From Seongchinamella unica (GTDB taxonomy: Bacteria; Pseudomonadota; Gammaproteobacteria; Pseudomonadales; Halieaceae), in the NCBI RefSeq assembly GCF_004354085.1, contig NZ_SMSE01000001.1, positions 797,724-861,723 of the forward strand: 64,000 nucleotides of DNA, given 5' to 3'. This document shows, one piece after another, positions 37,592 through 50,844 of the stretch. The notes under the pieces are model-generated. The model searched no databases. It was not told the origin of the DNA and was given only the letters and a program-made list of their open reading frames with translations. Every line of letters begins with the position of its first letter. The first letter of the stretch is position 1. The translations under genes were made by a program, and so were the position numbers.

Positions 37592-38944
37592 TCAGCCCTG
37601 GAGCCGGCGCTCCAGCTCAACGTGAAAGTGACGCAGGCGCTGTTCCTGCTCGCCCCACAACTGACCCTTGAACCCCCGGCTGCGCATGCCTTTTTGCACG
37701 ACCGGAAGCAGTGCTGAGTCCTGGCTCAATACCAGCCCTAGCCCGGCGTCTTCCTCCAGCGTGTAGTGCTCCGTCGCCGGTCGCACCCGGCCGCTGACGT
37801 CGGTACCTTCTGGCAACCCCATCCAGGCGGGTGGACAGTAGCTGGGATCCTCCGCGGGCAGCAGCAGGGTCATGGTGTCGTAATAAAAACGTTCGGGATC
37901 TTTCTCGTGGGGCAGGAAGCGCATCAGGAAAACCGCTTCAGGGTGGCAGCCGATCTGTACATTGGGAAATATCCCCGTTGCCCAGCTGTCAGACAACTGC
38001 CCATCTTCGAACCGCTCATAGCCCAGGCCCAGTCGCTCGGAACGCTTTCGCTTGCCGAGTTGGATTGCACGTCGCACGTCAGCAGCGGTACCGTCGAACC
38101 CCTGCGGATCGATTCCGGCTTCCTGCAGCATCATCTGTAGCCCTTCATTAACGGTTTTCTGGTCAGCCACGCGTGGACTGGGCTGACCCAGTGGCACAAT
38201 CATTCGACTGGCACCGTTGGGATACAGGTCATACTGTACATTGAGATCGCCCATCACCCCGCGTGTTTCAGGGTGTACGGCGTGCAGGTGATAGCTCTCA
38301 TAAAACGCCTCCACACCGACCTTCCAGTTGGCGCCCCACTCGCTGCGGACGTGGCGCACTACCTTCATTTTGTCGATCTGGTAGGCTTCCAGGTATCCTT
38401 CTGGCAGTCCAATACTCTCCTGCAGCGACGGCGGATTATCGCCCATGTGAATAAACACAATACCCGCGTGCTCGGCCACGGCAACCGGGGTGAGCCCGGG
38501 GCGATGCGCGATTACCTCCGGGTGGAAGGTCTCCTCATCGGTAATGCGTCGCAATTCACCATCGTTCCTGAAGCTCCAGCTGTGGAAGGGACAGACAAAC
38601 ACCTTCCTGCGACCGCGTTCATCCCAGACCAGTTTGGCACCCCGGTGGGCGCACACATTGTAAAAGGCTTTTACGCCTTCTTCCGTGCGGGTGACGATGA
38701 TTGACTCATCGCCGATATCGAAAACAAAAAAATCGTTGACGTTTTCCAGGTCGGATGAGACGCCTGCGATCAACCATGTATCGGTCCATATGCGCTGCCA
38801 CTCCCGCGCCATGTAATCGCGGCTGAAATACCCCTCCTTGGAATAACACTCGGTGCCGTTATCGACAGGGGGCTGTTTCGCCTCCAGGGATTCCGGCGGT
38901 GCGTCGGGATTGATTATGGCAACGGGGATACTCGGACTATTCAT
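37592..38944 (-). CDS. Rieske non-heme iron oxygenase, large (alpha) subunit
   Basis: 450 residues. The Rieske [2Fe-2S] ligands are Cys98/His100 in CAHRGAK and Cys118/His121 in CPFHSW. The catalytic iron motif is ESYHLHAVH with His219 and His224. This is the oxygenase of a ring-hydroxylating or demethylating system. No ferredoxin, reductase or small subunit gene is next to it, so electron donors are elsewhere. It is the last gene of the operon that starts with the SDR at 44227, 16 bp after the DUF35 gene. Substrates of such stand-alone alpha-only enzymes include steroids, terpenoids and choline-like amines. Confidence 0.92.
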   Translation of the reverse strand: MNSPSIPVAIINPDAPPESLEAKQPPVDNGTECYSKEGYFSRDYMAREWQRIWTDTWLIAGVSSDLENVNDFFVFDIGDESIIVTRTEEGVKAFYNVCAHRGAKLVWDERGRRKVFVCPFHSWSFRNDGELRRITDEETFHPEVIAHRPGLTPVAVAEHAGIVFIHMGDNPPSLQESIGLPEGYLEAYQIDKMKVVRHVRSEWGANWKVGVEAFYESYHLHAVHPETRGVMGDLNVQYDLYPNGASRMIVPLGQPSPRVADQKTVNEGLQMMLQEAGIDPQGFDGTAADVRRAIQLGKRKRSERLGLGYERFEDGQLSDSWATGIFPNVQIGCHPEAVFLMRFLPHEKDPERFYYDTMTLLLPAEDPSYCPPAWMGLPEGTDVSGRVRPATEHYTLEEDAGLGLVLSQDSALLPVVQKGMRSRGFKGQLWGEQEQRLRHFHVELERRLQG

Positions 38945-38960: not shown

Positions 38961-39380
38961 CTAACGGCTCACCTTATCCAATTCGAAAACCGGCATGACA
39001 TGGTCTGCACCCCAGGGCTGAAAGCCCACGATCACCGTGTCGCCCACCGCTACCGGCTGCGAATCGTCCACGATGATGTTGCTCATCATGCGCGGGCCCT
39101 CTTCCAGATCTATCAGCGCGACCACATAAGGTGCCGGATAGGCCGGCGAAATACCGCGCCGGACCACAGTAAAACTCGCGACCCGGCCGCGTCCGGACAC
39201 CGATCGCCAGGACAGTGACCTGCCGCCACACTCGCTGCACAGGATACGCGGGTAGAACTGAAAACGGTCACAATCACTGCAGTACTGCAGTCGCAACACC
39301 CCCTGCTTGCAGCCATCCCAGTACGGGCGTGAGATCTCCGTATCTGGTGGCATGATCCTGCTGGCTTGCGGTGCGTTCAT
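38961..39380 (-). CDS. DUF35 zinc-ribbon/OB-fold protein, Ltp2/ChsH2-C partner-like
   Basis: 139 residues starting at MNAPQ (ATG 39380); the upstream extension is not supported. A zinc ribbon with Cys34, Cys37, Cys48 and Cys51 (YCSDC, LCSEC) is followed by an OB fold (GRGRVASFTVVRRG, PYVVALIDLEEGPRM). DUF35 proteins pair with thiolase-fold enzymes; in actinobacterial sterol degradation the domain is the C-terminal half of ChsH2. Here it is a separate protein, and its ATG follows the thiolase-fold stop by one base. Confidence 0.88.
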   Translation of the reverse strand: MNAPQASRIMPPDTEISRPYWDGCKQGVLRLQYCSDCDRFQFYPRILCSECGGRSLSWRSVSGRGRVASFTVVRRGISPAYPAPYVVALIDLEEGPRMMSNIIVDDSQPVAVGDTVIVGFQPWGADHVMPVFELDKVSR

Positions 39381-39381
39381 A

Positions 39382-40563
39382 TCAGGCTGCCTCCCGCGAC
39401 AGAATAAGTGCAGTATGGGACGACATAATCCCCCCCTGTGCGTGGACCAGCCCGCAGCGAGCATCGGCCACCTGTCTGTCGCCGGCGCTGTGGCGCAACT
39501 GCCATACGGATTCGGTCAGAGCAAACATCGAACCCGGATTGCCAGGATGACAGTGGGACAGCAGGCCGCCGTGGGTATTCACCGGCAGTGCGCCACCCGG
39601 CGCCAGGGCACCACTGTCAACAAACGCGCCTCCCTCTCCCTTGGCACAAAATCCCAGGTCCTCAAGTTCGACCAGCACTGTCGGTGTAAAGCAGTCGTAG
39701 AGCTGCGCGAAATCCATATCCGAGGGCCCCAGGCCGGCCATGGCATAGGCGCGCTCACCGGCCTCGCGCGCAGCCGAGGTTGTCAGATTATGCGCCGCAC
39801 TGATGTGTTCGTGGTTATGTCCCTCACCCGCTCCCAGCAGATAGACGGGACTGTGGCGCAGGTCAGCGGCGCGCTCAGCACTGCAGAGCACGATGGCGGA
39901 ACCGCCATCTGACACCAGCGAACAATCCAGCAGATGCAGGGGATCGGCTATCAACCGCGAGGACAGGACATCGTCTACAGTGATCGGGTCGCGCATCTGC
40001 GCCGCGGGGTTGAGAGACGCGTGCTGGCGACAGGCCACGGCGATGCCGGCCAGCTGTTCGGGCGTGGTTCCAAACTCGGCCATATGGGCCTGTGCGATCA
40101 GCGCATAATAGGCCGGCACTGTGGGGCCATAGGGCTGCTCAAACTGCGGGTGACCAGTAGACGCCTGTACCTGCATCGCCTGATCGCGGGTCAGGCCGCT
40201 GCGCAGCGAATCCGCCATGGCGATAACGATAACGTCCGCCATTCCCGTGACGATGGCTGAAGCCGCGTGGTGAACAATGGAAAAGGTGGTCCCGCCTCCG
40301 GCACCCACGGAGAGACAATAGCGCGGGAATATCTGCAGATACTCCGCCATTGCCTCAGCGTGATACATATACGGCTGCGCCATGGCGTTACAGGTCAGCA
40401 AGCCATCGACATCCGACTTGTCCAGCCCCGCATCTGCTATTGCCGAGAGCGCTGCCTCAACGCACAGTTCCATCGGCGTCCGCCCCGGCAGCACGCCGAC
40501 GGCGGTGTCAGCACACCCCACAATAGCGACCTTGCCGCGCAACTGCTTACCAGTATTCGCCAA
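39382..40563 (-). CDS. Thiolase-fold protein, Ltp2/SCP-x-like, probable retro-aldolase
   Basis: About 393 residues from the TTG at 40563, inside the 3' end of the preceding gene; the start is not certain. The N-terminus GKVAIVGCADTAVGVLPGRT and the C-terminal THGGLLSHCHPGNPGS match the lipid-transfer-protein branch of thiolases. At the usual nucleophile position the sequence reads SVGAGGGTTFS with no Cys, so thiolysis is unlikely. Ltp2-type members of this branch perform retro-aldol cleavage of beta-hydroxyacyl-CoA, and the neighbouring DUF35 and hot-dog genes fit that role. The cluster position is strong support; the exact substrate is unknown. Confidence 0.82.
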   Translation of the reverse strand: MANTGKQLRGKVAIVGCADTAVGVLPGRTPMELCVEAALSAIADAGLDKSDVDGLLTCNAMAQPYMYHAEAMAEYLQIFPRYCLSVGAGGGTTFSIVHHAASAIVTGMADVIVIAMADSLRSGLTRDQAMQVQASTGHPQFEQPYGPTVPAYYALIAQAHMAEFGTTPEQLAGIAVACRQHASLNPAAQMRDPITVDDVLSSRLIADPLHLLDCSLVSDGGSAIVLCSAERAADLRHSPVYLLGAGEGHNHEHISAAHNLTTSAAREAGERAYAMAGLGPSDMDFAQLYDCFTPTVLVELEDLGFCAKGEGGAFVDSGALAPGGALPVNTHGGLLSHCHPGNPGSMFALTESVWQLRHSAGDRQVADARCGLVHAQGGIMSSHTALILSREAA

Positions 40564-40984
40564 AACGCACCACCACTTTCCCCGGGGCGACGACCTCACC
40601 CTCTGCATTCTTTATATGGACGTCGATATCCGCCTCGCTGTTCGTTGGCCGGAGAGCCGCTACGGTACCGCCAGAGGTGAGGGTCTCACCAACATAGCTG
40701 GCTACCCGGTTTGAATAGTCAATGGACAGGATCCGACCGTCCTCTCCCAACCACTCATCCACGCACTGGTGCAGCCAGTCGCCGAGCAGGGGGCCGGCGA
40801 GCACCAGCCCCGGGTAGCCTTCCACTTCCCGGGTATAGGGCTCATCGAAATGTATCCGATGGCCATTCCACAGAGCTGCGTTGTACAGCATCAGCTGCAC
40901 ATTGTCGCACTCAAAGTCCCGTTCCGGCAGACGATCGCCCACCTGGAGAAGGTCAAAACGCGCAGCGCCCTGTGCGGTCTTCAT
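40547..40984 (-). CDS. MaoC/HTD2-like hot-dog protein (ChsH1-like)
   Basis: 145 residues forming a single hot-dog domain with the NGHRIHFDEPYTRE motif of HTD2/MaoC hydratases, followed by GLVLAGPLLGDWL and the strand DVHIKNAEGEVVAPGK. Such proteins add water to enoyl-CoA, often as a heterodimer with a second, degenerate hot-dog. Both ends overlap neighbouring genes: 4 nt with the upstream hot-dog and about 17 nt with the thiolase-fold gene. Confidence 0.82.
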   Translation of the reverse strand: MKTAQGAARFDLLQVGDRLPERDFECDNVQLMLYNAALWNGHRIHFDEPYTREVEGYPGLVLAGPLLGDWLHQCVDEWLGEDGRILSIDYSNRVASYVGETLTSGGTVAALRPTNSEADIDVHIKNAEGEVVAPGKVVVRFGEYW

Positions 40985-41433
40985 CGCAGAATCCTCGTGG
41001 TTTTTTCACGAATCACCAGCGCCCCGTCGTCATCGACCACGTCCATGATCACCTCGTAAAAAATGAGTGGTCCCGAGCGCCCCTGCTTCTCGTAAATAGC
41101 ACTAAGTGTGCGCGTTGCGGTCAGCCAGTCGCCAGGGTAAATCGGCTTGTGGTATTCGATCTTCAAGCCACCCGCCATCGCCTTCTCCAGCGGGAACTTC
41201 GGGAGCAGAGTGTCGATCGACACACCGTCAGGCGAGAGCTGGTCCAGTTCAACCACGTCCCAGAACAGGGGCACATGAAACATCGGCGGCGCCTGGTCTC
41301 CCTGCAGGTACTTATCTTGCCGCGACCCGGTGGCGACCGCGTACTTGCGAATATCCCGACGGGTAACCAACTCCCTCCTGGGCTCGCTCTTGCGTCCGAT
41401 GTTGCCAAGTAGCTCTGGCGTAAGGAGGCTCAT
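40981..41433 (-). CDS. MaoC dehydratase N-domain protein (ChsH2-N-like hot-dog)
   Basis: 150 residues of the FAS1-like dehydratase/MaoC N-terminal domain family: RRDIRKYAVATGSRQDKY, then PPMFHVPLFWD and the central helix GGLKIEYHKPIYPGDWLTA. It lacks the HTD2 catalytic motif and is likely the structural half of a hydratase with the next gene. In ChsH2 this domain is fused to DUF35; here DUF35 is encoded two genes further on. It overlaps the acyl-CoA synthetase gene by 4 nt. Confidence 0.82.
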   Translation of the reverse strand: MSLLTPELLGNIGRKSEPRRELVTRRDIRKYAVATGSRQDKYLQGDQAPPMFHVPLFWDVVELDQLSPDGVSIDTLLPKFPLEKAMAGGLKIEYHKPIYPGDWLTATRTLSAIYEKQGRSGPLIFYEVIMDVVDDDGALVIREKTTRILR

Positions 41434-42995
41434 ACCTGCTTTCCTCCTGCCTGCCAGTAAACATCGCGCAACTGGCGCTTGAGAATCTTGCCTGTCGGCG
41501 CCTTGGGCAGGCTGTCAACAAAATCGACGGAACGGGGTTTTTGGTAGGAGGCGAGGTGCTGGGCAGCAACGTCGATAATTTCCTGCTCGGTTGCGCTCTC
41601 GCCAGGGCGCATCACCACCACCGCCTTCACGGACTCACCCCACTCGTCATCCGGAATGCCGAAGACCGCGGACTCCAGCACGCCGGGATGCTGGTGAATA
41701 GCCGCCTCCACCTGGGTGCTGAAAATGTTCTCGCCGCCAGAAATGATCATGTCCTTGGCGCGATCGACGATAAAGATGTAACCGTCTTCATCCCAGACGG
41801 CGATGTCGCCGGTACACATCCAGCCGTCGCGAATGGTCTCGGCGGTAAGGTCCGGGCGCTGCCAGTAGCCGACCATGTTTGCTTCCGAACGCACCAGGAT
41901 CTCGCCGGGAGTCCTGCTGTCGCGCGGCACCGTATTGCCCTCGGGATCGGCGAGGCGAATCTCGGTGATGAACCCCTCTCGTCCACAGGATCCCAGACGC
42001 TCAGGGTGGTCGCCATTGAGGGCCCGGATGTGATCTTCCTGGGAAAGAAAACTCATCGTCATGCCCTCGGTCTGGCCGTACCCCTGGATGATGGTGCAGG
42101 GAAACGCCTCCAGTGCCGCGGCGACCACAGTGCGGGGCATCGGGCCCCCGCCATACTGTATATTGCGCAGACTGCTGAGATCGAATTCGCTAAACTTCTC
42201 ATCGGCCATCATCCAGTTGAGCATCGTGGTGATACCGAGAAAGGCCGACACCCGCTCGCGCTCAATGGTCTCCAGCGCCAGCCGGGCCTCAAAGTTGATC
42301 AACACCAAGGGGCAACCATGGGCGTGGTAGTTCATGGCCAGGGCCACCGGGATATGGAACATCTGCCCGGTGAGCATGTAGACATCCGAGGGTACCACCC
42401 GTTCTGCAACCGTCTGATTGATCATGCCCATGAACAGGGTGCGATGGGTATGCAACGCGCCTTTGGACTGCCCTGTCGTACCGCCGGTATACAGGATCAG
42501 GGTTGGATCATCGCCGCCGACGCCGGCAGAGACCGCCGGCTCGTCGGCGGACGAGGCCGCGACCAGATGGTTGTAGGCGTCATCGCTGCCAGAGCCAAAC
42601 CCCAGCCAGTTGGGCACACTCACACAGTCCTGCAGTTCCCGCGCTGCCTCGATATACTCTCCCGAAAAAACAACCAGGGACGGCGCGCCATCCGCGAGAA
42701 TGCGGGCCATTTCCTCCACGCTCAGGCGCCAGTTCACCGGCTGGGCGATCATGCCGACCCGGGCACAGGCATAGTAGATTTCCATATACTCGATGCAATT
42801 CCTGGCCAGAATCGCGACGCGATCACCCTTGTTCAGGCCGAGCTCTCCCACCAGCGCATTGCCCAGGCGTCGCACCCTTTCATCGAGGTCACCAAAACAC
42901 ATACGGCGCCCGCTGTGCACATCGATCAGCGCCTCTCGCTGAGGGTCGAGTCGCGCTGTCTTGGCGGGTATAAAACCAATATTCACTGCTGCCAC
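41430..42995 (-). CDS. Acyl-CoA synthetase (AMP-binding, ANL superfamily), first
   Basis: 521 residues. P-loop LILYTGGTTGQSKGALHTHR, A5 motif IIQGYGQTEG, A7 MCTGDIAVWDEDGYIFIVDR and a C-terminal catalytic Lys region KAPTGKILKRQLRD are intact. It activates a carboxylic acid to its CoA thioester. Its place right before the hydratase and aldolase genes suggests the acid is a side chain or ring-opened product. Specificity is not evident from the sequence. Confidence 0.9.
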   Translation of the reverse strand: MAAVNIGFIPAKTARLDPQREALIDVHSGRRMCFGDLDERVRRLGNALVGELGLNKGDRVAILARNCIEYMEIYYACARVGMIAQPVNWRLSVEEMARILADGAPSLVVFSGEYIEAARELQDCVSVPNWLGFGSGSDDAYNHLVAASSADEPAVSAGVGGDDPTLILYTGGTTGQSKGALHTHRTLFMGMINQTVAERVVPSDVYMLTGQMFHIPVALAMNYHAHGCPLVLINFEARLALETIERERVSAFLGITTMLNWMMADEKFSEFDLSSLRNIQYGGGPMPRTVVAAALEAFPCTIIQGYGQTEGMTMSFLSQEDHIRALNGDHPERLGSCGREGFITEIRLADPEGNTVPRDSRTPGEILVRSEANMVGYWQRPDLTAETIRDGWMCTGDIAVWDEDGYIFIVDRAKDMIISGGENIFSTQVEAAIHQHPGVLESAVFGIPDDEWGESVKAVVVMRPGESATEQEIIDVAAQHLASYQKPRSVDFVDSLPKAPTGKILKRQLRDVYWQAGGKQV

Positions 42996-43415
42996 CTAGT
43001 ACGCGTTATCAAGATCAAGATGCCTGGCTGACAGGCGCCAGTTACCCGCCTCGTCCTGCACCACCGTGTCCTGGTAGACCCCGGTGGTCAGCAGCGCTGT
43101 CTGGCTATTCTCGGTGGCGATCAAGGTAAGAAAGGAATTGACCCTGATGCCGGCCGCGCCGGCCAGGAAAAAGAGATTGCTGACCACATGCCGGCGGACG
43201 TCCGTCTGCTGGGCCATGGAACCGGCCATCAGTTCCATAATCGCGTCACGACCCACGAACGGGCCGGCAAGTTCTCCGCCCGCAATGCGCATTGACATGG
43301 TGGCATCTTCGGCGAAACAACTCGCGAGCATGTCCGTATCGCGCGTGTCGTAGGCGTAAGAAGCTCGACTGAGCAGTTCATGAATTTCCAGTTTCTGTTC
43401 TGCGGTCAGGTTCAT
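42996..43415 (-). CDS. NTF2-like/SnoaL family protein (first of three)
   Basis: 139 residues from ATG 43415, overlapping the SDR stop by 4 nt. A helical N-terminus EIHELLSRASYAYDTRDTDM leads into a curved sheet with GPFVGRDAIMELMAG and ends YQDTVVQDEAGNWRLSARHL. The fold is used by ketosteroid isomerases, SnoaL cyclases and small hydratases, but also by many non-enzymes. The stop codon is adjacent to the synthetase ATG. Confidence 0.8.
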   Translation of the reverse strand: MNLTAEQKLEIHELLSRASYAYDTRDTDMLASCFAEDATMSMRIAGGELAGPFVGRDAIMELMAGSMAQQTDVRRHVVSNLFFLAGAAGIRVNSFLTLIATENSQTALLTTGVYQDTVVQDEAGNWRLSARHLDLDNAY

Positions 43416-44227
43416 GCCTGCACCTCCATTCCAAGTACGTCGAGGGTGCCACGCCAAGCGAGCGAACCTCCGTCGATGGTCCAAACAGCGCCGTTGACAA
43501 ACCGGGATTCAGGGCTGGCGAGAAAACAGACAAGTTCGGCGACGTCCGAGGGTTGGCCCATTCGCGGTACCAGGTGAGTCTGGGTCATGGTATTGAGCAT
43601 TGCCTGCGGGTCCGGCGCGGCCGCCAGGAACTTGTCCACAATCTGGGTGTGGATGGAGCCAGGGCAGTAGCAGTTGACCCGAATTCCATCCGGGGCGAGG
43701 TCCACTGCAAGCATCTTGCTCAACTGCATCACCGCGCCCTTACTGGCCCCGTAAGCCTGACATTGGGGGTAACCGGATAGCGAACTGGTGGAGCCCGCAT
43801 TGATAATGGACGCGTTGTCGCTCTCTCTCAGGTGCGGCAGGGCATGCTTGGCGCAAAGCCAGACACCGGTGACATTTACCCCCATGACTTTCTCGAAGGT
43901 ATCAAGGGACATGGTCTCCAGAGTCAGCTCCGTAGACAACATACTTTCATGGATGCCGGCATTATTATGCAGGATATCGATACCGCCGAAGGCTTCCGCC
44001 GCGGCAGCCATCAGCGCAACCACCTGCTGCTCGTTGGTCACGTCGCAGTGCTGGTACATAGCCTCGCCGCCCTGCGCGCGAATCTCTTCCACCAGGGCCA
44101 GGCCGGATTGATCGTCTATATCCGCGACCACCACCCTGGCCCCGCGACTGGCCGCCAGACGGGAAGTACCCGCGCCAATACCCACGGCCCCGCCAGTGAT
44201 CACAAAACGCAGCCCTTCAACGCCCAT
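43412..44227 (-). CDS. Short-chain dehydrogenase/reductase
   Basis: 271 residues, a classical SDR with GGAVGIGAG (cofactor loop), VVADID supporting NAD preference, NNAG, catalytic Ser in NAGSTSSLSG and the YGASK pair. It oxidises or reduces an alcohol/ketone. It is the first gene of the 8-gene operon running to the Rieske oxygenase and faces the TetR gene across a 111-bp gap with a perfect palindrome. Confidence 0.9.
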   Translation of the reverse strand: MGVEGLRFVITGGAVGIGAGTSRLAASRGARVVVADIDDQSGLALVEEIRAQGGEAMYQHCDVTNEQQVVALMAAAAEAFGGIDILHNNAGIHESMLSTELTLETMSLDTFEKVMGVNVTGVWLCAKHALPHLRESDNASIINAGSTSSLSGYPQCQAYGASKGAVMQLSKMLAVDLAPDGIRVNCYCPGSIHTQIVDKFLAAAPDPQAMLNTMTQTHLVPRMGQPSDVAELVCFLASPESRFVNGAVWTIDGGSLAWRGTLDVLGMEVQA

Positions 44228-44948: not shown

Positions 44949-45947
44949 TCAGCCCAGTCTCGGCAGCACCTTATCGGCGATATAGCGCAAGCGTGCATCG
45001 CCAGAGGCAACCGATTCACCCGGAAACTGCGCCCAGAAATGAATATCGCGAATATTGGGGTAGTTGGCCAACAGCTTGTTGATTTCAGTGACCGCCATGT
45101 CGGCATCCCACAGCTCGTACAAGCCATTTTCAATCGCCGCCGCGGCATTTTCATACAGGGGCACGCTGCCCGGTGGCCCGAAGGCTCCCCACTTGATGTA
45201 CTCGTTTGCCTGGTAAAGGATGTGCTCGCCGATTTTCGCTGCTTCAGCTTCCGGGTCCTCGGCGATGATAGCCCAACAGCCGAGGATAACATCACCATCC
45301 TGCACCGACTTGCCCTGCTGCTCCAGCGCGGCATTGTACATATCGATACCGATCCCCCCGGTACACAGAAAACCATCGGCAACACGCGCGGCACGCTGGA
45401 TGGCAGGCTCGACCATACCCCCGAGATATATCTTCGGCCTGGTCTGCGGCACCGGCGTGACCCGCAGGTCGCCCACTTCAAAGCGCTTGCCGCTGAAGTT
45501 CACAGCCTCACCACTCCAACTGCGTCGCAGTATCTCGATGCCCTCTTCTACCAAACTGGGACGGTGTGACAGTTTGCGCTGAAAGTAATCGAACTCCAGC
45601 TGCCGATAGCCGATACCCACCCCCAGGTCGAAACGCCCACCGCTCACCAGGGACAGGGTTGCCGCGTCCTCCGCCACCCGCACCGGATCGTGCAGCGGTA
45701 ACAGCATCAGGTTAGTACCCAGACGCATCTGTTCCGTACGCGAGGCGATTGCCGACGCCAGCAGCAGCGGCGAGGGCGTATAACCATCGTCGCAAAAGTG
45801 GTGCTCAGTCAGCCAGCAGGAGCGGAATCCCATCGTCTCTGCACGGGAAATCTGCGCCAGACGCTCGGCATAGAATGCCTCATAGGGCTGCTGCCATTGC
45901 GGCGGGTTACGGAAGTCGTACCATAAACCGATATTAACCTTGTTCAC
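44949..45947 (-). CDS. LLM class flavin-dependent oxidoreductase
   Basis: 332 residues of the bacterial luciferase-like family: NIGLWYDFRNPPQW, GFRSCWLTEHHF, LLLPLHDPVRVAEDAATL and FDLGVGIGYRQLEF. It uses FMN (or F420 in other phyla) for monooxygenation or hydride transfer. In a gammaproteobacterium FMN is more likely. The start overlaps the alpha/beta hydrolase stop by 4 nt, and it is the last gene of its operon. Confidence 0.9.
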   Translation of the reverse strand: MNKVNIGLWYDFRNPPQWQQPYEAFYAERLAQISRAETMGFRSCWLTEHHFCDDGYTPSPLLLASAIASRTEQMRLGTNLMLLPLHDPVRVAEDAATLSLVSGGRFDLGVGIGYRQLEFDYFQRKLSHRPSLVEEGIEILRRSWSGEAVNFSGKRFEVGDLRVTPVPQTRPKIYLGGMVEPAIQRAARVADGFLCTGGIGIDMYNAALEQQGKSVQDGDVILGCWAIIAEDPEAEAAKIGEHILYQANEYIKWGAFGPPGSVPLYENAAAAIENGLYELWDADMAVTEINKLLANYPNIRDIHFWAQFPGESVASGDARLRYIADKVLPRLG

Positions 45948-46765
45948 GCACCACCTCCTTGCAGGTTGCCTTGCAGGAAGTCGAGTAACTCACGCTGGTA
46001 CAGCTCGCTCTCCTCGATAAACGGGGCATGCCCCGAACCGGCACATTCAACCAGCCTCACATTGGCGGCGTAATCCACCACCGAGCGACAGACTGCTGGA
46101 TCCACCACCGCATCCTGGCTGCCTGCATAGGTCAGGATCGGCACTGCCAGGTTTTTTAACACGGCCCGCTGGTCCAGTGGCCCCAACGCCGCCAGCGAAC
46201 GCGCCGCCAGCGGGGAAGATTGCAGAAACATACCCCACATCCAGTCCGTCACCTGTTGGCTGACCTCGCTGGCACAAACCCCCGCAGACAGCGCGGCGAG
46301 AAAATTGACCCGGTCGGCCGACATCGCCGCCAGTGTTTCGGCGAGCGCCTCATCAGTCCCACCGTGGGGATAATCTGGCTTCTGCAGATAGCAGGGCGTG
46401 GCGCCGCAGGTCAGCACCAATCCGGAGCAGCGCGCGCCCAGTGATTCTGCGGCGGCGACCGCTACAGCACCACCCAGCGACCACCCATTCAACACGACGC
46501 GCTCCAGTCCGAGATGGTCCACCAGCGCGGCGACATCACCGGCGATGGCCTCGATGCTCATGTCGGCAAAGTCCTTGTCGGATTGACCACAACCCCGATG
46601 ATCCAGCAGCACCACCCTGTAACCGGCATCGGTCAAGGCCGGCAGCGTGTAATCCCAGGCGCGCACGCTGGTGCCCCAGCCATGGATCAGGATGACTGCG
46701 GTGTTGCCAGCACCATAATCCTCGTAATAGACCTGCTTCCCTTCTTCCCTTGCCATGCTACTCAT
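45944..46765 (-). CDS. Alpha/beta hydrolase
   Basis: 273 residues from ATG 46765 (8-nt overlap with the TetR stop); a second ATG at 46756 is possible. The nucleophile elbow is NGWSLGGAV, the oxyanion loop LIHGWGTS, the acid probably Asp in GSQDAVVD, and the His is in GSGHAPFIE. It has the fold of C-C or ester hydrolases. After a Baeyer-Villiger monooxygenase a lactone or ester hydrolase would be needed, and this is a candidate. Confidence 0.87.
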   Translation of the reverse strand: MSSMAREEGKQVYYEDYGAGNTAVILIHGWGTSVRAWDYTLPALTDAGYRVVLLDHRGCGQSDKDFADMSIEAIAGDVAALVDHLGLERVVLNGWSLGGAVAVAAAESLGARCSGLVLTCGATPCYLQKPDYPHGGTDEALAETLAAMSADRVNFLAALSAGVCASEVSQQVTDWMWGMFLQSSPLAARSLAALGPLDQRAVLKNLAVPILTYAGSQDAVVDPAVCRSVVDYAANVRLVECAGSGHAPFIEESELYQRELLDFLQGNLQGGGA

Positions 46766-47423
46766 CTGCGGTCTCCTCAAACTGGTTCGGGTTAGCCAAA
46801 TTGGCGATAGTACTGTCGATATAACTGTCGAACACGGCGTCAAGGTCGAGCGCCTCCGCGTTGACCAGCCACTGATAGACGATGCCGAATACAAATGCAC
46901 AGTAGTGAGTGGCGGCCTGGGCCGCGTCAACTTCGGGGCGCACAGCGCCCGATGCGATACCCTGCTCTATCCAGCGTCGCGCATCAGCGCGATAGACATC
47001 ATGGTGTTGAGCCAGCGCTCGACGCATCTCGGTATCATGGCCGAGGCATTCGTACCAGAGCAGGTACATCGCACGCATATAGCTGGACTCCTTCTTGAGA
47101 AAATCCCGTAAGGCGCAAGCTGCCTGCTGCAGGGCGTCCAACCCCTGACGCCCGGCGACGTAATTCTCGAGATGCTCTTTCCAGACGCTGTCGAACTGCT
47201 CGAACAACTCCATCATCAGGCCGTCCTTGGAACCAAAGCGATAATTGGCCAGACCTCGACTATAACCCGCGCGCTCACCGATCTCCTTGAGCGTTGTCTT
47301 TTGCGTACCGCGCTCGTTGATCAACTCAATCGCCGCCTTGAACATGCGGCGGTCGGAAAGCGCCGTGCGCTCCGCCTGAGTCATGCGCCCCTCGGCGCGG
47401 CTACCACCCTTGGTGTCGTTCAT
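46758..47423 (-). CDS. TetR family transcriptional regulator (embedded in operon)
   Basis: 221 residues. HTH region DRRMFKAAIELINERGTQKT, then LKEIGERAGYSRGLANYRFGSKDGLMMELF. The long helical C-terminal domain includes RAMYLLWYECLG. Overlaps of 4 nt with the synthetase before it and 8 nt with the hydrolase after it show that it is translated as part of the catabolic message. It may bind the tandem repeat at 50792-50844. Confidence 0.88.
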   Translation of the reverse strand: MNDTKGGSRAEGRMTQAERTALSDRRMFKAAIELINERGTQKTTLKEIGERAGYSRGLANYRFGSKDGLMMELFEQFDSVWKEHLENYVAGRQGLDALQQAACALRDFLKKESSYMRAMYLLWYECLGHDTEMRRALAQHHDVYRADARRWIEQGIASGAVRPEVDAAQAATHYCAFVFGIVYQWLVNAEALDLDAVFDSYIDSTIANLANPNQFEETADE

Positions 47424-49039
47424 CGCTGCACTTCCTCTATGCTCAGTTCACCTGCCTCGTTCATTTGCCGCAGGCGTTTCTTGTCCATTTTACCCACACT
47501 GGTCTTGGGTATCTCATCGACGAAGGCCCAAAACTCCGGCAACCAGAAACGGGCTACCTTGTCACGCAGGAATTCCCGCAGTTCACCCAGGTCCACCTCA
47601 GGCCGGTCACCGACAACAATCACCAGCGGCCGCTCCTGCCAGCGCTCATCGGGCGTGGCAATCACCGCCACCTCACGCACATCCGGGTGCCCGGCCAGTA
47701 TATTTTCCAGGTCCACCGAGGAAATCCACTCACCCCCGGACTTGATCACATCCTTGGTGCGATCAGTCAACTGCACATAGTGACGCGTATCAATATGACC
47801 GACATCGCCGGTGCGCAACCAGCCATCTTCAGTCTGGGAGTCCTGAGACTCACCGCGATGGTAACCGCCGGTTATCCACGGCCCCCGAAGCTGTAGCTCC
47901 CCTACCGATTCGCCATCGTGGGGCAGGACCGATCCGTCCTCGCCGACCACCCGCACCTGAACCCCGGGTACGGGACGCCCACTTTTGGCACGCCAAACCG
48001 TCTCGCCCGCCCCGTGAGCATCGCGGGGCGGATGCGACAGGGCGCATAACGGACTGGTTTCGGTCATGCCCCAGCCCTGTAATACAGGCACCCCCCAGCG
48101 ATCCCTGGCGGCATCGATCATCGCCGGCGGCACTGCCGAACCGCCGCAAACCAGCATGCGGAAACAGCTCATGTCCAGGTCCTGTGCGTCAGCGTGCAGC
48201 AGGTCACCAAGTATGGTCGGCACTGTTGCAGTGAAGGTGGGACGATCAAGGGCGATCATGCGCTTGATGCCTTCAGGCTGCAGGTGCGGCCCGGGCAGGG
48301 TAAAGTCACTGCCGCTGAGCCAGCCGCTATAGGGCAGGCCCCAGGCATTGGCATGAAACATCGCCGGCAGCAGCAGGATGCGGTCGCGCTCACAAATACC
48401 GAAGGTGTCGGTTGCCCGCGACGCCAGCGAGTGCACGAAGGTCGTGCGGTGGCTGTACACTACACCCTTGGGGTTACCTGTGGTGCCACTGGTGTAACAG
48501 ACGGCGGCCGCCGCAGTTTCATCCAGCTCCGGCCACGTCTCGCAGGGCGCATGTTCGGCCAGGTGAGCGCGATAGTCGAGCGTCAATATATCAGTTTGTA
48601 GCTCGCCCTCCCCAATCAGCAGGATGTGCTCGACGCTCTGCAGCAACGGCAGCACCGGCGCGAACAGCTCAATCAGGCTGGCATCCAGCAACACCACCTT
48701 ATCCTCGGCATGGTTGATGATATAGGCGATGTGCTCGGGCGAGAGACGAATGTTGACCGTATGAATAATTGCCCCCATGGAGGGCACCCCCAGGTAAGCC
48801 TCCATGTGCGCGGTGTTATTCCAGCTGAACGTCGCCACCCGGTTGCCCGGCTTCACGCCGATCGCATGCAACGCCGCAGCGAGCTGTCCGGCACTGTCTG
48901 CAATCTGGCGGTAACTGGTGTACGCCATGGACTCGCCATCGAAGGTACCGACCTGCGATTCCGGGAACACGTCGCGGCCATGGGCAAGGATCATTTGCAC
49001 CGTCATCGGCATGTGCATCATCGTGGACTGCATTACCAT
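47420..49039 (-). CDS. Acyl-CoA synthetase (long/medium-chain type), second
   Basis: 539 residues with P-loop VCYTSGTTGNPKGVVYSHR, A5 GWGMTETSPLC, A7 LRTGDVGHIDTRHYVQLTDR and C-terminal KTSVGKMDKKRL. The N-terminus (MTVQMILAHGRDVFPES) places it near the AlkK/long-chain fatty-acid ligase group. It is a second CoA-activating enzyme in the region, with clearly different sequence from the one at 41430-42995, so the two likely act on different acids of one pathway. Confidence 0.9.
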   Translation of the reverse strand: MVMQSTMMHMPMTVQMILAHGRDVFPESQVGTFDGESMAYTSYRQIADSAGQLAAALHAIGVKPGNRVATFSWNNTAHMEAYLGVPSMGAIIHTVNIRLSPEHIAYIINHAEDKVVLLDASLIELFAPVLPLLQSVEHILLIGEGELQTDILTLDYRAHLAEHAPCETWPELDETAAAAVCYTSGTTGNPKGVVYSHRTTFVHSLASRATDTFGICERDRILLLPAMFHANAWGLPYSGWLSGSDFTLPGPHLQPEGIKRMIALDRPTFTATVPTILGDLLHADAQDLDMSCFRMLVCGGSAVPPAMIDAARDRWGVPVLQGWGMTETSPLCALSHPPRDAHGAGETVWRAKSGRPVPGVQVRVVGEDGSVLPHDGESVGELQLRGPWITGGYHRGESQDSQTEDGWLRTGDVGHIDTRHYVQLTDRTKDVIKSGGEWISSVDLENILAGHPDVREVAVIATPDERWQERPLVIVVGDRPEVDLGELREFLRDKVARFWLPEFWAFVDEIPKTSVGKMDKKRLRQMNEAGELSIEEVQR

Positions 49040-50046
49040 TCTCCCTGCGCTGCCAGCCTGGCTTCATCCAATAATGCGGGGACATCGTACTCCAGCCCCC
49101 TGGCGTAATCCGTGTCTACCTTACCTGCCAGATACAGGCCGTAGGCACCCTCGACGATCGCCGCCAGGCGCCAGAAAGCGAAGCAGAGGTAGAACTCCAT
49201 GTTGGGCAACGGCATCCCGCTGGACGCCGACCAGGCCTGGGCCAGTTCGCGGCGGCTGACCACCCCTTCGCGACGGGATACTGCCTGGATATGGGCGAAT
49301 CCGGGAGGTGACACCTTCCGCGGCCCCCAGAACATCAACAGCAGACCCAGGTCGACCAGCGGATCGCCGATGGTACCCATCTCCCAATCTATCACCGCCA
49401 ATAATTCCGGGCGCTGTCGATGGCACAGCGTATTGTCGAGATGATAATCACCATGGACAATACCCACGGGGCCCTCAGCCGGAAGGTTTTCCAGCAACCA
49501 GCTGCCCAGGCTTTCGAGCTCGGGGAGATCACGCGTGGGCTGCTGTTTCCGCACCTGCAACCAGCGCTCAACCTGTCGTTGCAGGAATCCCTGCGGCCGC
49601 CCCATATCGGCCAGTCCCAGCTCCTGCCAGGGAGCGCTGGCGATTTTACCCAGGGCCTGGGCCAATTGCAGTCCGAGTTCACTGACCGCCGCGTCGTTGT
49701 CATAGGCGGGCGGCAGGCTGTCGGTCAGGGAAAGGCCGTCGATAAATTCAACCAGCGCAAACGGCTGGCCCGCCACTGAACTGTCCTCGCACCAGGCCAT
49801 CACCTGCGGCACAGGCGCATGACCGGACAGCGCGGCCATGAAGGCCGATTCGCGCTGCACGCCCAAATGCGCCTTGGGGGAAATGGTGTTTTGAGGCGCA
49901 GAGCGCATCACCAGCCTGCCTTCATCATGCACAACCATGCGGGTCAGGTTGGAATTGCCGCCGCTGAGCTCGCCGTCAATATGCGCATTGCGCAGCCCCA
50001 GCTCACCCTCCGCCCAAAGGCTGAACGCGTCCGCCTGAACGCTCAT
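49033..50046 (-). CDS. APH-fold phosphotransferase (ACAD10/11 N-domain type)
   Basis: 337 residues of the aminoglycoside-phosphotransferase/choline-kinase fold: SGGNSNLTRMVV near the start, Brenner loop HGDYHLDNTL and metal-binding VIDWEMGTIGDPLVDLG. The same domain precedes the acyl-CoA dehydrogenase in animal ACAD10/ACAD11, where it phosphorylates 4-hydroxyacyl-CoAs. Here an acyl-CoA dehydrogenase gene is divergently encoded 1 kb away. A 4-hydroxyacid catabolism role is plausible; drug resistance is not. Confidence 0.85.
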   Translation of the reverse strand: MSVQADAFSLWAEGELGLRNAHIDGELSGGNSNLTRMVVHDEGRLVMRSAPQNTISPKAHLGVQRESAFMAALSGHAPVPQVMAWCEDSSVAGQPFALVEFIDGLSLTDSLPPAYDNDAAVSELGLQLAQALGKIASAPWQELGLADMGRPQGFLQRQVERWLQVRKQQPTRDLPELESLGSWLLENLPAEGPVGIVHGDYHLDNTLCHRQRPELLAVIDWEMGTIGDPLVDLGLLLMFWGPRKVSPPGFAHIQAVSRREGVVSRRELAQAWSASSGMPLPNMEFYLCFAFWRLAAIVEGAYGLYLAGKVDTDYARGLEYDVPALLDEARLAAQGEW

Positions 50047-50774
50047 CCTGGCGTTCCAAAGCTGGACAGCAGGCCGCCATCAACGGGTACGAATGCCCCG
50101 GTCATATAGCGTGAACGTGCAACCCACTCTATGACTTCGGCTATCTCGTCCGCTTCCCCGTAACGGCCCATGGGAATGGTGCGGCACATCGCTTCAAGCG
50201 CCTTTTCTGACAGTGCGCCGGTCATTTCCGTCAGCACCAGGCCGGGAATCACCAGGTTTACCCGAATCGCAGCTGGTGCCAGTTCGATAGCCAGGGCACG
50301 GGTGAGACCGGCAAGGCCCGCCTTGGATGCGGCGTAGGCCGCGTCACCGGGAAAGCCACGAAAGCCGACCACCGCACCCACGTTGATAATCGCACTGCCC
50401 GCCTGCAGTGCCGGGCGCGCACTGCTGATCACATTGAGCGCACCGGTCAGGTTGGTATCCAGTACCGCCTGCCAGTCTTCCGCGGCCAGGCGGCCGACTT
50501 TGCCGCCGCGGTGCAGGCCCGCATTGTTAACCACGACGTCAATGCGACCCCAGCGTCCCAGCACGGCGTCCACTGCGCCCCAAACCGCAGTTGCATCGGA
50601 AATGTCTGCCTGCACCCCCATGGCGTTATCACCCATGGCCTCGGCGACCCCCAAAACGGCTTCGCCACGGGCCACCAGGGCCACACGGTCACCGGCATCC
50701 GCCACCCGCTTGGCCAGCGCGTGACCAATACCTCGAGAGGCCCCGGTGATCAGCCAGACTTTTTCTTGCTCCAT
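50043..50774 (-). CDS. SDR family oxidoreductase with catalytic Ser replaced by Ala
   Basis: 243 residues from ATG 50774 with GGGAG upstream; the TTG at 50792 is less likely. It has GASRGIGHA, NNAG and YAASKAG, but the residue 13 positions before the Tyr is Ala (INVGAVVGF, codon GCG) where classical SDRs have Ser (ITIGSVVG in FabG). The other motifs are intact. It may have reduced or altered activity. It is the first gene of the 50.8-44.9 kb operon, and its stop overlaps the APH-fold ATG by 4 nt. Confidence 0.87.
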   Translation of the reverse strand: MEQEKVWLITGASRGIGHALAKRVADAGDRVALVARGEAVLGVAEAMGDNAMGVQADISDATAVWGAVDAVLGRWGRIDVVVNNAGLHRGGKVGRLAAEDWQAVLDTNLTGALNVISSARPALQAGSAIINVGAVVGFRGFPGDAAYAASKAGLAGLTRALAIELAPAAIRVNLVIPGLVLTEMTGALSEKALEAMCRTIPMGRYGEADEIAEVIEWVARSRYMTGAFVPVDGGLLSSFGTPG

Positions 50775-50791
50775 ATATGGATTTTCTCCCA

Positions 50792-50844
50792 AACTTTATT
50801 CACAATACGCTTGTTTCTGAACTTTATTCAAAATATGCTTGTTT
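50792..50844. promoter_or_regulatory. 25-bp tandem repeat overlapping a divergent promoter
   Basis: Two copies of a 25-bp unit (AACTTTATTCA ... GCTTGTTT), at 50792-50816 and 50820-50844, agree at 23 of 25 bases. On the minus strand TTGAAT (50826-50831) and TATTGT (50802-50807) form a sigma70-like promoter with an 18-bp spacer for the SDR operon. Copy 1 covers the -10 and copy 2 the -35, as expected of a repressor site. The acyl-CoA dehydrogenase gene starts 62 bp further on in the other direction. Confidence 0.65.

Follow-up and report, generated by a model that had tools for sequence, protein, structure and literature searches.

Coenzyme A (CoA)-dependent hydratase/retro-aldolase modules are known from steroid side-chain cleavage. 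Tyr302 and Cys304 are essential in the bile-acid aldolase CtSal (PMC12329534), the aldolase Ltp2 pulls an unfavourable hydration (PMC8399759), and the MaoC and DUF35 domains of Comamonas ORF40 keep both activities when expressed separately (PMC12502768); a free DUF35 protein with such an aldolase has already been published as well (Atf1–ChsH4; PMC10398937). Here we describe a four-gene cassette on the minus strand of a 64 000 nt stretch of the genome of Seongchinamella unica (assembly GCF_004354085.1, contig NZ_SMSE01000001.1, positions 797 724 to 861 723; hereafter the window). An original prediction, made from the DNA alone, had placed there a hot-dog protein (HD1), an Htd2-type hot-dog protein (HD2), a Cys-less thiolase-fold protein (THL) and a free-standing DUF35 protein, encoded in that order by overlapping genes of a gammaproteobacterium in the company of a Rieske oxygenase and an acyl-CoA synthetase (ACS). 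Open reading frames and domain matches bear this arrangement out, both neighbours adjoin the cassette, and the host is a marine member of the Halieaceae. The cassette probably encodes a module of this CoA-dependent hydratase/retro-aldolase kind, on a branch separate from that of steroid side-chain cleavage. We give an even chance to a more specific reading, in which thiolase-fold aldolases of a further clade, with a Tyr–Cys–His site, have joined with a split enzyme of the itaconyl-CoA hydratase (Ich) type in a non-steroid route that depends on CoA and cuts the chain of an imported organic acid; the route would be widespread in ocean Halieaceae and occur also in Bacillales.

The thiolase-fold protein

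A search of named genomes seeded with the HD1 alignment yielded 113 relatives, of which 80 were kept; 73 of the 80 loci had a THL match, and the motif alignment comprised the window protein and those of 67 loci whose THL frame passed 55% identity and 360 aa. All 68 aligned proteins have Gly where thiolases carry their nucleophile, YDCF at the place of HDCF, and the His of thiolases, with a second His likewise invariant, whereas in the same alignment the Sal rows read YDCY with Gln and TcLtp2 reads YDHF with Tyr. The His at position 339 of THL, missing from Sal and Ltp2, has a counterpart in the rows of Achromobacter, Celeribacter and Salipiger. As far as residue identity can tell, THL combines the Tyr–Cys dyad of Sal with a His that is absent from both steroid aldolases.

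The phylogenetic tree held 45 rows, including 19 of the 68 aligned cassette proteins, hand-picked for spread. These 19 form one clade (support 100/99) within a Cys-less group of 39 rows (100/99), which also contains Sal, Ltp2, the 4u4e group and the Achromobacter/Celeribacter/Salipiger group, among which the tree gives no resolution of the branching order. The Cys thiolases lie outside, so that the placement by which the original prediction was to be judged, apart from thiolases with a functional Cys, is obtained with full support. Its description of THL as an Ltp2-like aldolase fails, as the protein belongs to a clade of its own and the second catalytic Tyr of Ltp2 is replaced by His throughout; against the Ltp2 model PRK07855 the window protein scores 283 bits, the cut-off being 469.

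It might be argued that THL is no aldolase at all but a Claisen-type thiolase or an acyl-CoA decarboxylase, since it keeps His339 as thiolases do and since the Pfam and NCBIfam models that it matches are named for thiolases or acetyltransferases. The NCBIfam model concerned, PRK06158 'acetyl-CoA acetyltransferase', is exceeded by the window protein by 2 bits over the cut-off and missed by a Bacillales protein (L131) by 2 bits; its name is probably wrong for these proteins because they lack the catalytic Cys. With Gly invariably in place of the nucleophile and with the tree setting THL apart from the Cys thiolases, we regard a Claisen or decarboxylase function as highly improbable.

The hydratase pair

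HD1 and HD2 match the N and C halves, respectively, of itaconyl-CoA hydratase (E about 1e-10 to 1e-15). For HD1 and HD2, respectively, profiles built from all 80 members score 63 and 117 bits with the pair of Rhodococcus locus L144, 54 and 101 bits with that of Rhodococcus L146 and 57 and 60 bits with a fused Mesorhizobium protein, and only 12 and 18 bits with the window genome's own ChsH2 and ChsH1; a Vibrio Shy-type protein was matched by neither. The family motif of HD2, N-[GA]-H-R-I-H-x-D, is without the Asp of the usual hydratase-2 motif. When a structure model of HD2 (pLDDT 83) was used in a fold search, an Aeromonas (R)-hydratase came first, and chains of the Mycobacterium tuberculosis ChsH1–ChsH2 complex, taken as ChsH1 on their length, came second, fourth and fifth. 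The HD2 fold alone does not separate the itaconyl-CoA hydratase type from the ChsH1–ChsH2 type, while by sequence comparison HD1 and HD2 appear far closer to a split itaconyl-CoA hydratase than to ChsH1/ChsH2. The earlier view of the pair as ChsH2–ChsH1-like hot-dog proteins is not supported by sequence, in which the pair is of the Ich type and related to ChsH only remotely, though the fold of HD2 does match the ChsH1–ChsH2 complex.

A second operon in the same genome

Another contig of the genome encodes a 318 aa protein with FAS1_DH, zinc-ribbon and OB domains, a 160 aa MaoC protein and a lipid-transfer protein scoring 542 bits with PRK07855. This locus (L049), in which DUF35 is in the fused form, is a true ChsH2–ChsH1–Ltp2 operon, so that the cassette of the window represents an additional system of a different kind. 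The suggestion that the cassette is itself ChsH2–ChsH1–Ltp2 machinery is not supported in view of this operon, and in view of the six searched carriers outside the Halieaceae, which are without an HsaC-type gene and four of which have TRAP transporter genes in the cluster.

Other relatives of the aldolase were also seen. At about 933–937 kb of contig C3 of the same genome (L048), two thiolase-like proteins (with YVPF and YAPF) and two DUF35 genes stand beside an HsaC-like gene. Three alphaproteobacterial plasmids (L148, L149 and L150) carry a Sal-related aldolase (about 42% to CtSal), a DUF35 protein and a MaoC hydratase beside a gene annotated as acetoacetate-CoA ligase, and these loci likely represent another non-steroid use.

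Distribution and conservation

When 38 relatives were searched with HD1, 14 gave a match at E 0.001 or better and 12, the window genome included, at 1e-60 or better. Among 12 loci taken from relatives, the order SnoaL–ACS–HD1–HD2–THL–DUF35 is present in 11, nine of which have the Rieske gene as well; the twelfth locus (L047) has only remote HD1 and HD2 matches (32–37%), THL being absent. Adjacency was then counted on one strand over the 80 HD1-seeded loci, with contig ends scored as misses. HD1 was followed by HD2 in all 80, HD2 by THL in 72, and THL by DUF35 in 67, while ACS preceded HD1 in 71, SnoaL preceded ACS in 59, and the Rieske gene followed DUF35 in 49; given such conservation, the gene arrangement is not due to chance. 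In seven of the eight HD1–HD2 loci without an adjacent THL the genome carries THL elsewhere (59–75% identity), the best match in the eighth being 39%. In three Bacillales the displaced gene is on the same contig, roughly 8–13 kb away as judged from coordinates and contig extents.

The titles of 39 of the 80 loci name the Halieaceae or the genera Haliea, Halioglobus, Luminiphilus, Pseudohaliea, Pseudohalioglobus, Kineobactrum and Litorirhabdus, some of which we take to be members of that family. The remaining titles include Porticoccaceae, Chromatiales, Lysobacterales, Emcibacter, unclassified Gammaproteobacteria and four Bacillales; a Planctomycetaceae locus (L076) and a Flavobacteriaceae locus (L094) are contigs of metagenome-assembled genomes and may be misbinned. 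One cluster in a Luminiphilus metagenome-assembled genome (L118) holds four THL, two DUF35 and two Rieske matches, perhaps through duplication. In marine gammaproteobacterium HTCC2148 (L033, L044 and L127), HD1 is split over two overlapping matches, one of them with stop codons, and the gene is therefore either broken or misread there.

Layout of the cassette and neighbouring genes

The features are listed in Table 1. HD1 and HD2 overlap by 4 nt, HD2 and THL by 17 nt if the TTG start is used, and a gap of 1 nt separates THL from DUF35. The Pfam scan found FAS1_DH_region in HD1, Thiolase_C_1 (217 bits) in THL, and zf-ChsH2 with OB_ChsH2_C in DUF35; it gave no match for HD2. All four frames show an uneven base composition across the codon positions, as coding sequence does. 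The DUF35 protein has a C4 zinc site and is encoded by a separate gene after THL. The original prediction was right about the order, which is that of an igr-type operon apart from the unfused DUF35, and about the free DUF35, but the latter is not new as such, given Atf1–ChsH4, IpfD–IpfE and Rhodococcus L144 and L146.

Table 1. Features of the cassette and its neighbours, by position in the window
Feature	Position	Strand	Description
SDR1	43412..44227	-	Short-chain dehydrogenase; in part of the cassettes only
SnoaL_4/NTF2-fold protein	42996..43415	-	Predicted lyase (dehydratase/isomerase); invariant Asp and His
ACS	41430..42995	-	Acyl-CoA synthetase; 4 nt overlap with HD1
HD1	40981..41433	-	150 aa; hot-dog subunit, Pfam FAS1_DH_region; presumed non-catalytic partner of HD2
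HD2	40547..40984	-	145 aa; Htd2/itaconyl-CoA-hydratase-type hot-dog; predicted catalytic hydratase subunit; motif N-G-H-R-I-H-F-D
THL	39382..40563	-	393 aa from TTG 40563; longer reading from ATG 40608; Cys-less thiolase fold, predicted retro-aldolase
THL Gly90 codon	40294..40296	-	Place of thiolase nucleophile Cys
THL Tyr289 codon	39697..39699	-	YDCF motif (numbering from 40563); equivalent to CtSal Tyr302
THL Cys291 codon	39691..39693	-	Equivalent to CtSal Cys304
THL His339 codon	39547..39549	-	Place of Ltp2 Tyr344, Sal Gln352 and thiolase His
DUF35	38961..39380	-	139 aa from ATG 39380; free-standing zinc-ribbon/OB protein, C-x2-C-x10-C-x2-C
Rieske oxygenase alpha subunit	37592..38944	-	Nearest type carnitine/glycine-betaine monooxygenase

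On the same strand, ACS, the SnoaL_4 protein and the short-chain dehydrogenase lie upstream of the cassette and the Rieske alpha subunit, whose closest solved structure is carnitine monooxygenase, lies downstream. In the SnoaL-type protein, Asp24 and His77 (numbered from 43418) are kept in the window and in 62 loci. Among solved structures its profile matches LinA, a putative scytalone dehydratase, Rv3472 and two uncharacterized proteins; it did not match the NTF2 protein of Rhodococcus DMU1. Single-sequence family scans had given weak matches to Rieske beta subunits, but the assignment of the SnoaL-type protein as such a subunit was rejected, as up to E 0.01 the structure profile search returns no beta subunit of a dioxygenase. 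Beyond the cassette, at 44949–50792, the window encodes a luciferase-like monooxygenase, an alpha/beta hydrolase, a TetR protein, a second CoA ligase, a phosphotransferase-family protein and a short-chain dehydrogenase; with remote matches included, the monooxygenase is present in 31, the hydrolase in 27 and the second ligase in 20 of the 80 loci.

The frequent position of a Rieske gene next to DUF35 recalls the route proposed for ibuprofen, in which the Rieske enzyme would make a ring diol on an aryl-acyl-CoA and the THL–DUF35 pair would remove the side chain. The same types of component are found on pIBU218 (Rieske alpha and beta subunits, IpfD, IpfE and a CoA ligase, the ipf names being assigned from gene order and the paper), and release of propionyl-CoA by IpfDE is reported in that paper (PMC9195938). 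However, IpfD groups with Ltp2 (94/96, on a long branch), has Tyr at the place of His339 and is 36% to THL, and the window Rieske protein and IpfA are 24% alike. Up to 15 of the 80 loci have no adjacent Rieske match despite room for one (16 more could not be judged), in L115 the Rieske gene is upstream, and the hydratase pair would be left without a role. An ibuprofen-like route was rejected on the position of IpfD on the Ltp2 side by both tree and motif, and we hold a pathway of this type to be very unlikely here.

Substrate and proposed pathway

In the pathway that we propose, ACS would activate a carboxylic acid to its CoA thioester, as its family suggests. The scan of the window neighbours revealed no acyl-CoA dehydrogenase, and the double bond may therefore be present in the substrate already or be supplied by the SnoaL-type lyase. 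Family, motif and HD2 fold suggest that HD1/HD2 would act as a heteromeric (R)-hydratase, hydrating the enoyl-CoA at its alpha,beta double bond. THL, bound to DUF35, would then cleave the 3-hydroxyacyl-CoA in a retro-aldol reaction that yields a short acyl-CoA together with an aldehyde or ketone, and this removal of product may pull the hydration. By residue identity with CtSal (PMC12329534), Tyr289 would be the base and Cys291 the acid, and His339 would be an additional group.

What the acid might be is suggested by the Bacillales clusters, all four of which contain TRAP transporter genes (DctP and DctM in each, DctQ shown in two); because of these genes, a water-soluble organic acid is the more likely substrate rather than a sterol. 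Two of the clusters, L121 (5039–6581) and L161 (7252–8929 and 16091–17236), also encode an amidohydrolase-2 protein and a small Rieske protein, with a CoA-transferase III in L161.

A steroid substrate in Halieaceae is unlikely in our estimation, though less so than the other alternatives. The cassette would then be a side-chain machine of that family, for example the missing equivalent of Sal/Shy for C5 side chains. Within the genome, CtSal finds its best match in THL (38%, the next being 31%), which also has the Sal dyad; among the seven DUF35 matches of the genome one open frame only (321 aa, of the ChsH2 type) is long enough for a Shy-type fusion; and a cholesterol degrader is reported within the Halieaceae (PMC5790920). 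HsaC-like genes, a name that we infer for matches above 200 bits (our own threshold, below the curated family cut-off of 366), occur in 11 of 12 relatives with the cassette vs 13 of 26 without it (two-sided p 0.027, or 0.18 within the family), and Ltp2 exceeds its cut-off in nine of 12 vs 10 of 26 (two-sided p 0.079). A further 22 carriers were hand-picked from the 80, mostly outside the Halieaceae and several with incomplete genomes: HsaC-like genes are present in 12 of 16 and in none of the other six (four Bacillales, Chromatiales L103 and Emcibacter L115), making 23 of the 34 carriers searched. Conversely, 13 HsaC-positive relatives are without the cassette, and G020 and the four Bacillales are among the 11 carriers without HsaC-like genes, some of the remainder of which have incomplete genomes. 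The association is thus mild and ancestry may be its cause; steroid identity by co-occurrence was set aside, as neither the Ltp2 nor the HsaC-like counts decide. Further arguments against a steroid role are that THL falls outside the Sal clade, that the hydratase is not of the ChsH type by sequence and its profiles miss the Vibrio Shy-type protein, and that the cassette is on contig C1 while the HsaC-like gene and the ChsH2-linked Ltp2 are on C3.

Several observations nevertheless weigh against the proposed pathway. The higher frequency of HsaC-like genes among cassette relatives favours some steroid link, and no TRAP genes were seen among the window neighbours, which with the Bacillales clusters were the only places in which they were looked for. 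The window neighbours that were scanned include no aldehyde dehydrogenase. THL retains the thiolase His that Sal and Ltp2 have lost; TbSLP, which likewise has YDCF, is reported to decarboxylate malonyl-CoA weakly (PMC12329534); and the structure model of THL (pLDDT 57) was too poor for a fold search and was not used.

If the proposed non-steroid pathway is correct, the DUF35-linked thiolase-fold aldolase would be a general tool for cutting C–C bonds and not a speciality of steroid degradation, and the cassette offers a testable gene set in marine bacteria. A search of open-licence PMC articles, by title and start of abstract, found no description of the cassette, the THL clade, the Tyr–Cys–His site or the pairing with an Ich-type hydratase.

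Comparison with known systems

The Sal/Shy bile-acid aldolase and hydratase (CtSal, PDB 9myr) share with the cassette a Cys-less thiolase fold with DUF35, the Tyr-Asp-Cys motif and, as predicted for the cassette, hydration followed by retro-aldol cleavage. In contrast to Sal, with YDCY and Gln352, THL belongs to another clade and has YDCF and His; the cassette DUF35 is free and has a C4 zinc site, whereas the partner of Sal has a Cys3His1 site and is fused to MaoC; and the cassette hydratase is a split Ich-type pair. With ChsH1–ChsH2–Ltp2 (TcLtp2, PDB 6ok1; ChsH1–ChsH2, PDB 4w78) the cassette has in common the order hot-dog, hot-dog, aldolase, the FAS1_DH_region of HD1, found also in the window genome's ChsH2, and an HD2 fold that matches chains of the complex; it differs in that DUF35 is free instead of being fused to the first hot-dog and in that THL keeps the first Tyr of Ltp2 without the second. 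Itaconyl-CoA hydratase (PDB 8khg and 8huc) resembles HD1/HD2 in its N and C halves and in the NGHRIH motif, but in the cassette the halves are encoded separately, and the next gene is for a thiolase-fold protein where citramalyl-CoA lyase would be expected. Atf1–ChsH4 of Mycolicibacterium neoaurum likewise places an aldolase, there of the Sal type, and a free-standing DUF35 protein of 138 aa in one operon, although that operon, as described (PMC10398937), is without the hydratase pair and serves a steroid substrate. The Rhodococcus plasmid clusters L144 and L146 have free HD1, HD2, aldolase and DUF35 genes, in the same order in L144 and with a ligase and an aldehyde dehydrogenase besides in L146; their aldolases, however, belong to the Sal clade (52% and 50% to CtSal) and their HD1 and HD2 are relatives at the profile level only (54–117 bits).

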